Shown: piece by piece, positions 1-51,665 of the stretch
How the letters are laid out: the number at the start of each line of letters is the position of its first letter
How positions within the stretch are numbered: position 1 is the stretch's first letter
Source: an uncultured bacterium
Lineage (GTDB): Bacteria; Cyanobacteriota; Vampirovibrionia; Gastranaerophilales; Gastranaerophilaceae
Reading direction: 5' to 3'
DNA: 64,000 bases
Assembly (NCBI GenBank): GCA_902794035.1
Contig: CADBFN010000011.1
Location: 1-64,000 of the forward strand
Made by a program: the position numbers and the translations under genes
Notes under the pieces: generated by a model
What the model was told of the DNA's origin: nothing
Databases searched by the model: none
The model's input: only the letters and a program-made list of their open reading frames with translations

Positions 1-211
1 ATTCAGGGTAGATAATTCTTTTTTAAACAGAGTAGAAAACTTTTTACTGTTTGAGTTCTGAATTAATGTAGGTATGGTTATTGCCGCAACTACACCCACA
101 ATGCCAATTGTTATCATTAATTCTGCCAAAGTGAAGGCAAAATGCTTGTTATGAGAGGCTTTTACCCCCCCCCCCGAGGTTGAAACGCTTGCTATTACTG
201 CTTTTTAACAT
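1..211 (-). CDS. Prepilin-like protein, frameshifted at a poly-G tract, 3' part outside window
   Basis: Read on the minus strand, an ATG at 211 with a GAGAGGA ribosome site about ten bases upstream opens a short leader beginning MLKSSNSKRFNL. It runs into eleven consecutive G bases and then stops. After the tract, another frame encodes KASHNKHFAFTLAELMITIG and continues hydrophobically to the window edge. This is the class III (prepilin) signal: F at mature position 1, E at position 5, then a membrane helix, with Ala instead of Gly before the predicted cleavage site. Ten G bases would join the leader and pilin in one frame; with eleven they are out of phase. I see no ATG, GTG or TTG between the upstream stop and the tract in the pilin frame. 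Either the gene is phase-variable and OFF here, or the tract length is a sequencing error. The C-terminal part lies outside the window. Confidence 0.75.
165..175. repeat. Homopolymer tract of 11 C (G on the coding strand)
   Basis: This is an unbroken run of eleven C bases in an otherwise AT-rich sequence, lying between the start codon and the prepilin cleavage motif of the minus-strand pilin gene. I noticed no other G or C run of comparable length. Runs of this kind mutate by slipped-strand mispairing, and a change of one base would restore the pilin frame. Confidence 0.95.
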
Positions 212-50282: not shown

Positions 50283-51665
50283 ATGCCTGCAATTACAAAT
50301 AAAACTCTTGAAACACTCAAATATGACCTTGTAAGAGAAGGTTTAGTCAGCTATGAAGTAGTTGAGCAGGCGCAGGAGATTGCAAACGCAAGAAGTATCA
50401 ATATCGGTCAGGCTCTGATTGACTCAGGTTTTATAACTGAAGACCAACTTATAAAATTTCTTGAAACAAAACTGCATACACCGTTTGTAAATCTTGACGA
50501 TTATGAACCTGATAAAAAATGTCTTAAATATATAAGTTTTACAGATGCAAGACGATACAAAATAATTCCGTTATTTAAGATTGAAAACACTTTGACCGTT
50601 GCAATGTCCGATCCGCGCAACTTGTTTGCTATAGACAAAATTATGGAAAGTGCAGAATGCGAAATTGATCCTGTTTTGGCAAATGAAGATTCTATCTTAA
50701 ATAAAATTGATGAATATTATAAAATTGATGTTTCAGTCGGAAATATATCTACAGGTTTTAATGGCGGATATGACTGGCAGGAAGAACTTCACAAAGAAGA
50801 TTTGAGCGATAATCATATCCAAAAAATTATAAGAGCCATACTCAAACAGGCAATATTAGAAGATATTCACGAAGTAATATTTCAGGGCGATGACGAAGGA
50901 CTTGGAGTAAACTTTAAAAAACAAGGCGAAATGCTGAATAAAGGATACATCCCAAGTGTTTTAATATCATCATTTATTGCTAAATTAAAAACAGTATCGG
51001 AGCTGGATTCTTCAGTTTCAGAAGTCCCGCAATTAGGTAAATTGTGCTTTAAAGTAGATGATATATATGTTATGGCAAGTGTTTCCACATTCCCGACAAT
51101 AATGGGAGAAAGAATTTTCTTAAAAATCTACAAGCCGCCTAAAACACTTGATAAAATAGTAACCTCAAAACAAGATCTTTCAGAGATAAGAAATAGTTTA
51201 AATATTCCGGGAATAATTCTTGTATGCGGTTCATCTTTAAGCGGTAAAACCCATGTAATCTATTCATTACTGCAGGAAGCTGCAAAAACGACCTCTAAAA
51301 ACATTATGACACTTGAAAGTATTGCAAAATACGAACTTTCAGGAGTCAATCAGTGCGAATTTAATGAAAATGTAGGCTTTAATATGGACAAAGCTACCCG
51401 CTTTATTACATTCCAAAATCCTGATATTATCTATCTTGAAGGTATAAAGTCAAAAGCCTCGTTTGATTATTTTTCAAGTCTTGTTTATGACGGAAAAACA
51501 ATTATTATGGAATTTCTTGCCAATAATATGGAAGATTTACGCAACAAAATGGCATTTTCAGATTTTGATACTTTAAAATCAATCATTACAACAATGATAT
51601 TTATACACTCAAAAAATAGCATTGAAGTGTTTGATAAAAATAATCTGCAAAAGTATCTTGGCTAG
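50283..51665 (+). CDS. Degenerate PilB/GspE-like type II/IV secretion ATPase homolog
   Basis: The 460 residues have an N-terminal MshEN-like domain (about 10-80: INIGQALIDSGFITEDQL), a linker, and a GspE-like ATPase region (about 170-455). Walker A is recognisable as GSSLSGKTH. Other key parts deviate: Walker B reads PDIIYLEGIKS instead of the usual PDIIMVGEIRD, the TLHTN-type His box is replaced by GKTIIMEFLANNMEDL, and no CxxC zinc motif is present. The MshEN motif also lacks the usual R and Q that contact cyclic di-GMP. It may be a non-motor, regulatory relative of a pilus ATPase. Confidence 0.8.
   Translation: MPAITNKTLETLKYDLVREGLVSYEVVEQAQEIANARSINIGQALIDSGFITEDQLIKFLETKLHTPFVNLDDYEPDKKCLKYISFTDARRYKIIPLFKIENTLTVAMSDPRNLFAIDKIMESAECEIDPVLANEDSILNKIDEYYKIDVSVGNISTGFNGGYDWQEELHKEDLSDNHIQKIIRAILKQAILEDIHEVIFQGDDEGLGVNFKKQGEMLNKGYIPSVLISSFIAKLKTVSELDSSVSEVPQLGKLCFKVDDIYVMASVSTFPTIMGERIFLKIYKPPKTLDKIVTSKQDLSEIRNSLNIPGIILVCGSSLSGKTHVIYSLLQEAAKTTSKNIMTLESIAKYELSGVNQCEFNENVGFNMDKATRFITFQNPDIIYLEGIKSKASFDYFSSLVYDGKTIIMEFLANNMEDLRNKMAFSDFDTLKSIITTMIFIHSKNSIEVFDKNNLQKYLG

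Follow-up and report, generated by a model that had tools for sequence, protein, structure and literature searches.

A candidate poly-G phase switch in the leader of a type IV prepilin family that is also a predicted retroelement target in Gastranaerophilales

We found an 11-base poly-G tract in the leader of a prepilin gene from an uncultured member of the Gastranaerophilaceae. This tract is probably a slipped-strand contingency locus, in a pilin family that is also a target of a diversity-generating retroelement (DGR). The whole stretch of DNA analyzed here, referred to as the window, comprises positions 1 to 64000 of the 68345-base contig 11 (C11) of a 1.79 Mb assembly in 47 contigs (G000), and its tract is probably an on/off switch in one member of the family. 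Our reading draws on gene anatomy, length variation among copies, frame bias, purifying selection, and adenine-specific divergence between template and variable repeats.

Anatomy and reading frames of the window gene

Window positions 165-175 read as 11 C on the plus strand and hence as G11 on the minus strand, which codes for the gene. The window has no other run of at least eight G or C, in agreement with the initial annotation, which had noticed no other long G/C homopolymer. On the minus strand, a predicted sigma-70-like promoter (280-252; TTGACA at 280-275, a 17-base spacer, and AATAAT at 257-252) is followed by a ribosome-binding site (AGAGAGGAT, 229-221), an ATG start codon (211-209), a 12-codon leader segment (ATGTTAAAAAGCAGTAATAGCAAGCGTTTCAACCTC, 176-211) that is homologous across the paralogous cassettes, the tract itself, and the remaining prepilin gene (1-164), which is ended by the contig start and retains about 45 mature N-terminal residues. 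The homology to the paralogues begins approximately at the promoter-like element. The tract lies, as first described, between a start codon with a ribosome site and a prepilin motif (FTLAE, 135-121). This motif had been called textbook; FTLAE is present, but Ala takes the place of Gly just ahead of the cleavage site (HFA-FTLAE).

Translation confirmed the two frames proposed for the gene. With 11 G, the leader reads MLKSSNSKRFNLGGGGKSLS-stop and translation ends after 20 residues; with 10 G, it reads MLKSSNSKRFNLGGGVKASHNKHFA-FTLAELMITIGIVGVVAA... and stays open as far as the contig end, the segment downstream of the tract being ...KASHNKHFA-FTLAELMITIGIVGVVAA; with 12 G, a stop follows immediately past the tract. 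That is, 10 or 13 G give a single open frame and 11 or 12 G an early stop, and the proposed switch would be OFF at the present 11 and ON at 10 or 13. A slippable tract is sited here where one unit shifts the frame between a full-length and a truncated product. A start codon for the pilin downstream of the tract was also considered and rejected: no ATG, GTG, or TTG occurs in the proper frame ahead of the motif, and at 11 G the pilin frame has no usable start, as had been claimed. In a shuffle control of the window, the mean was 0.16 matches against 4 observed, and 1 of 100 shuffles got to 4.

In the paralogue on contig C2, written with a leader of the window type, the prepilin motif and the hydrophobic helix after it matched PF07963 above the cut-off. 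The genome also encodes a prepilin peptidase (PF06750, E=1.4e-34) and a PilB-type assembly ATPase (PF00437, four matches over the cut-off). By motif, peptidase, and ATPase, the family is predicted to consist of type IV prepilins. One T2SSE/PilB-type ATPase domain match (PF00437, 91 bits) is found within the window, at 50805-51452 on the plus strand.

During type IV pilin processing, the prepilin peptidase cuts off the leader, and therefore the glycine count encoded by the tract should be absent from the mature pilin. Several copies carry RHSERSEES-type repeat elements of up to about 77 residues between tract and motif, and the ~77-residue insert of C17 is open in frame. Such REP-like insertions were observed at L032, L034, L035, L038, L041, L070, and L077 (contigs C4, C12, C17, C33, C38, C13, and C28, respectively). 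They fall in the leader portion predicted to be removed, and those of C17 and C28 are open in frame to the motif.

The poly-G cassette family, its frames, and selection

The genome contains 14 G runs of at least 9, against 0.3-0.6 expected from base or dinucleotide composition; this excess rules out chance or an isolated curiosity. Without exception, these runs belong to prepilin genes that are paralogues and share one promoter-leader-tract cassette. The pure tracts measure 12, 11, 9, 11, 10, 10, 11, 15, 14, 12, 11, 13, 11, and 11, and three of them (10, 10, and 13) are in frame. Across 17 cassette copies, one of which has a different leader, leader and spacer differ essentially by substitutions alone and the pure tract ranges from 9 to 15; such length variation among close copies with conserved flanks is a hallmark of repeat-based phase-variable genes. 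Three more cassettes have an interrupted tract (C6, C7, and C13) and one has lost the run (C28). Because the C7 (GGGTGGGGG, interrupted) and C28 copies read in frame with the tract broken or lost, we consider the leader start to be the real one. C6 and C13 retain G8, and C6 was scored out of frame. In every copy read, the gene is equipped with a promoter-like element, a ribosome site, and a start codon of its own. The genome has 37 pilin-like matches in total, and further pilins have no tract and short leaders.

Among 46 genomes of the genus, poly-G counts range from 0 to 56; several relatives share the same arrangement, contrary to the refuting case named in the initial annotation (relatives in which the tract is absent), although many others are without the tract. 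Some 40 tracts were read out in G007, almost all in divergent prepilins with a common leader. The cassette is alike within one genome and different between species. Tract counts in related genomes had been suggested as a check on switching, and one pair of orthologous loci was indeed G10 OFF in one genome and G11 ON in the other, at 80% identity; a second pair has G11 and G12 at 86% identity, and a further pair G10 in both. The slipped-strand ON/OFF reading first given to the tract thus gains support from length differences among near-identical paralogues and among orthologues.

We scanned one genome per species, as a sample and not a census, for the pattern of G9, a spacer, and a prepilin motif. 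At least 119 matches were obtained, and among those listed nearly all were Gastranaerophilales or other Melainabacteria records; the few listed elsewhere (Treponema, Cognaticolwellia, and a 'Coriobacteriales' MAG) may be of chance origin. A phage origin was rejected, with no tract-prepilin pattern match in viral contigs, and no related plasmid records were found for one neighbouring stretch.

Poly-G was also noticed in genes other than pilins. A second family comprises ORFs of roughly 500 aa or longer that resemble secreted proteins and start TLKALSIAALAGM after G9-G10 (L127, L158 (G007), L091 (G011), and L096 (G029)); Pfam gave no match for the two tested, L158 and L091. Three further runs lie in or near other surface-function genes, for a Chlamydia-PMP-repeat protein (L121:1643, G007), a family 2 glycosyltransferase (L102, G032), and a hexapeptide transferase (L139, G060), and therefore the phasome extends to other surface functions. 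At G007:C62:333087-333192, two G12 runs are split by NN, a scaffold gap inside a tract that is probably an assembly break at the homopolymer.

We then compared the frames of start, tract, and motif in 178 genes with a clear ribosome site, from 49 genomes across the order. Nineteen were in frame and 159 out of frame, against 36.4 (sd 3.7) expected in frame when tract lengths were permuted within genomes and 65.3 (sd 6.3) when permuted across genomes, although genes within one genome are related and these statistics are not fully independent. With one gene picked per genome, about 5.5 of 49 were in frame (p=0.0007), and the OFF bias persisted. Genes that are ON at 10 are mostly at 11 (51 vs 10), and genes that are ON at 11 are mostly at 10 (48 vs 5), which indicates that a single slip would suffice to turn almost every OFF gene ON. 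This contrast gave a Fisher p=2e-16, and p=3e-6 after removal of three contributing genomes, G007, CALUVV, and CAG:439. The usual consensus state is OFF.

The OFF genes stay full-length: by phase, the median ORF lengths are 232, 242.5, and 234 aa. They evolve under purifying selection, as seen, for example, in an OFF-copy comparison with dN 0.015 and dS 0.42; pN/pS between copies ranged from 0.05 to 0.46. Pseudogene decay was ruled out for the family by the low dN/dS between OFF copies. One G007 tract is interrupted (G6-A-G4) yet out of frame, and a lock in the OFF state is therefore possible for some members. Slipped-strand phase variation with OFF as the predominant state fits the frame and length data best, since the OFF bias, the intact selected ORFs, and the length differences between orthologues match reversible switching with rare ON.

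The preference for the out-of-frame state and the purifying selection on genes that are OFF could also be produced by programmed slippage of RNA polymerase or the ribosome, in which a conserved tract length yields a fixed small share of full-length product and nothing switches. Tract length is indeed almost constant across the loci of several genomes (in one MAG, all 13 loci have G10), which is more uniform than fast free slippage suggests, unless its equilibrium is tight. We nevertheless regard programmed slippage as unlikely: the two out-of-frame classes are about equal in size (81 and 78) and no direction of slippage is conserved, 19 of the scored genes read in frame, and lengths run from 9 to 15 among near-identical copies of one genome.

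It is quite improbable that the OFF copies are a silent library of recombination donors to a few expressed pilins, like gonococcal pilS. The copies are similar enough to break the assembly, and the likeness of cassettes within a genome, together with their difference between species, suggests gene conversion; but each copy read has its own expression signals, the roughly 40 copies of G007 encode divergent pilins, and the tract alone keeps the copies silent. A single-run G-quadruplex as in gonococcal pilE was also set aside, because one G run alone cannot form one.

Errors of assembly or consensus, with wrong homopolymer lengths and a true sequence that is in frame, were considered since assemblies give one consensus per locus and each of the 14 tracts of the genome faces outward no more than 800 bases from a contig end. 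These positions are explained by near-identical pilin bodies that break the assembly, and several contig ends share exact 40-97 base overlaps in pilin-body repeats. Local error does not account for many lengths at 14 loci here and in 178 scored genes of 49 genomes, for the same pattern in tracts inside long contigs of G007 and G035, or for a length bias tied to the frame of each gene, and we find this explanation barely credible.

The retroelement and the tips of the same pilins

The paralogue C-termini end ...SGLGSSWxxLWSGxExSxxxAYxRxF...RAVCVGDLK, and because of this shared pattern (...RAVCVGDLK) we suspected a DGR target. The sole RVT_1 gene of the genome (C30:707-1855, minus strand, 382 aa) lies directly upstream of a G15 pilin and carries the motifs LPIGNLTSQ and YVDD, which we take to mark this reverse transcriptase (RT) as DGR-type; its profile matches were to general RT models only. 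On C18, the 3' part of a pilin with a variable repeat (434-573) comes first, and after it an AAC-rich template repeat (1214-1354) and an Avd gene (NF033474, E=8.6e-17, 61 bits, under the model cut-off of 80). The ends of C30 and C18 overlap by 22 bases, and RT, pilin, template, and Avd may be contiguous across this join. The genome has a single RT, a single Avd gene, and a single template repeat, together with 13 variable repeats, each of them at the 3' end of a pilin gene.

In 11 variable repeats with >80% identity to the template, changes were found at 186 of 429 template A positions and at 27 of 1107 other bases (OR 31, p ~1e-87). The repeat of C20 has 19 A changes and 0 others, and that of C22 has 15 and 0. 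The same pilin family is, on this pattern, the predicted target of the DGR.

Three side observations belong here. A variable repeat at a pilin 3' end lies just past the window, at the other end of its contig (C11:68118-68257). The RT-adjacent pilin (L037:543-600, C30) begins with a longer leader of another sequence (ATGAGAAAACAAAAACCCGAAAACGC...), and its tract, G15, exceeds all the others. Another DGR in the genus (L336, G008:C75) has the order variable protein, Avd, template, RT; its variable protein ends FWSSAEIIANYAYAVNLYN..GLCIGD, and a G8 run lies near the start of its frame.

Single ORFs with tract, pilin, and C-type-lectin tip were found in five genomes (G000, G004, G035, CALUTI, and CALVER). 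In G000, a GGGAG8 tract and a variable repeat are on one contig (C6, at 51 kb), and C13, with an interrupted tract, joins C29 through 97 bases. C24 (G11) and the end of C30 (G14) overlap only the C6 start and the C19 end, both with variable repeats, and C43 (G11) joins a C-terminus on C2 without one. Among the assembly contigs, no contig-end overlap identifies the other half of the window gene; since all nine leftover 3' halves found in G000 carry a variable repeat, this gene probably carries one at its 3' end too. One contig of G004 contains an RT (84% identical) and, directly after it, a G10 out-of-frame pilin whose C-terminus has the repeat, while the template repeat and Avd are on another contig end. 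The ORFs of G035, CALUTI, and CALVER combine G9-G12, pilin, and lectin-like tip, and no RT like that of C30 was found in G035.

An AlphaFold2 model of the CALUTI poly-G pilin was of modest quality (pLDDT 69, four sequences). Structural alignment matched residues 180-333 of the model to C-type-lectin structures (best Z 8.8), and almost every row listed was of that fold. Foldseek alone gave nothing below E 0.3 on this model, and Pfam found no lectin family on the pilin tips. By the homologous CALUTI pilin, the model points to a C-type-lectin fold for the DGR target.

Proposed mechanism and relation to known systems

We propose that slippage in living cells would gain or lose one G and so join or separate the frames of leader and pilin. 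The prepilin peptidase would remove the leader, leaving the mature pilin unaltered by glycine number and repeat insertions. Each genome would hold dispersed switches, only a minority of which are ON at a given moment, and a cell would show few pilins. In the G000 species, the DGR, if currently active, would also rewrite the C-terminal C-type-lectin domain of many such pilins, perhaps including the tip of the window copy. We see about an even chance that the two form a two-tier surface diversification, in which a poly-G lottery picks a few of 15-50 pilins and the RT rewrites at least 13 lectin tips, including those of OFF copies, so that new tips are built silent and shown after a one-base slip.

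Most of what is known about poly-G contingency switches comes from Campylobacter, Helicobacter, and Neisseria; for DGRs, the familiar examples are from phages and a range of bacteria. DGRs of Bacteroides act on type V pilus tip adhesins; a retroelement there diversifies the pilus adhesin of a gut bacterium, as is predicted here, but those are type V pili that are not known to have a poly-G switch, whereas ours are predicted type IV prepilins whose leader contains the proposed frame switch.

Campylobacter phasomes comprise up to 81 phase-variable genes per strain, with coding-strand poly-G in ORFs and a narrow length peak (9-10 there, 10-11 here) (PMC6321876). The tracts in Campylobacter serve many gene families, in a text without 'pilin' (PMC6321876), whereas those described here serve mainly one dispersed prepilin family; also unlike in Campylobacter, the present tract sits in a leader segment predicted to be removed, and there is a strong frame bias to OFF. 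In Neisseria, the opa paralogues are likewise dispersed and individually switched by repeats, pilC has a homopolymer within the reading frame, and 23 of 607 pilS alleles carry repeats (PMC5953494). Neisseria pilins vary by recombination of silent copies into pilE (PMC5953494), whereas here a promoter-like element, a start, and a G switch belong to each copy that was read, and the tips appear to be edited by a retroelement.

Cyanobacterial DGRs resemble the present one in RT, template repeat, C-type-lectin targets, and dispersed paralogous targets, but their targets are tied to signalling and regulation (PMC7517822), whereas here they are pilins. Vallota-Eastman et al. 2020 (PMC7517822) do not mention pili, pilin, or Melainabacteria, nor do Roux et al. 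2021 (PMC8144416) mention pilin or Melainabacteria. The link between DGRs and pilins as such is already known, because Yan et al. 2019 (PMC6642488) connected 'putative pilin structures' with DGR-type DUF1566 domains. In the open-access literature, none of the papers listed pairs poly-G or phase variation with Melainabacteria, and we found none with both DGRs and Melainabacteria; matches to 'DGR' with 'type IV pil' were off the point by title and abstract. The literature searched contained no coupling of a poly-G switch and a DGR within a single pilin family; this combination appears to be new, its parts being known.

The breaks of the assembly at pilin genes are explained by this family, and automated annotation may call many such pilins pseudogenes or misplace their starts. 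The cell appears to have two separate ways to change its surface. This points to heavy investment in surface variation by a non-photosynthetic order of cyanobacteria from animal guts that has received little study, and these pilins are candidates for host, phage, or prey recognition.
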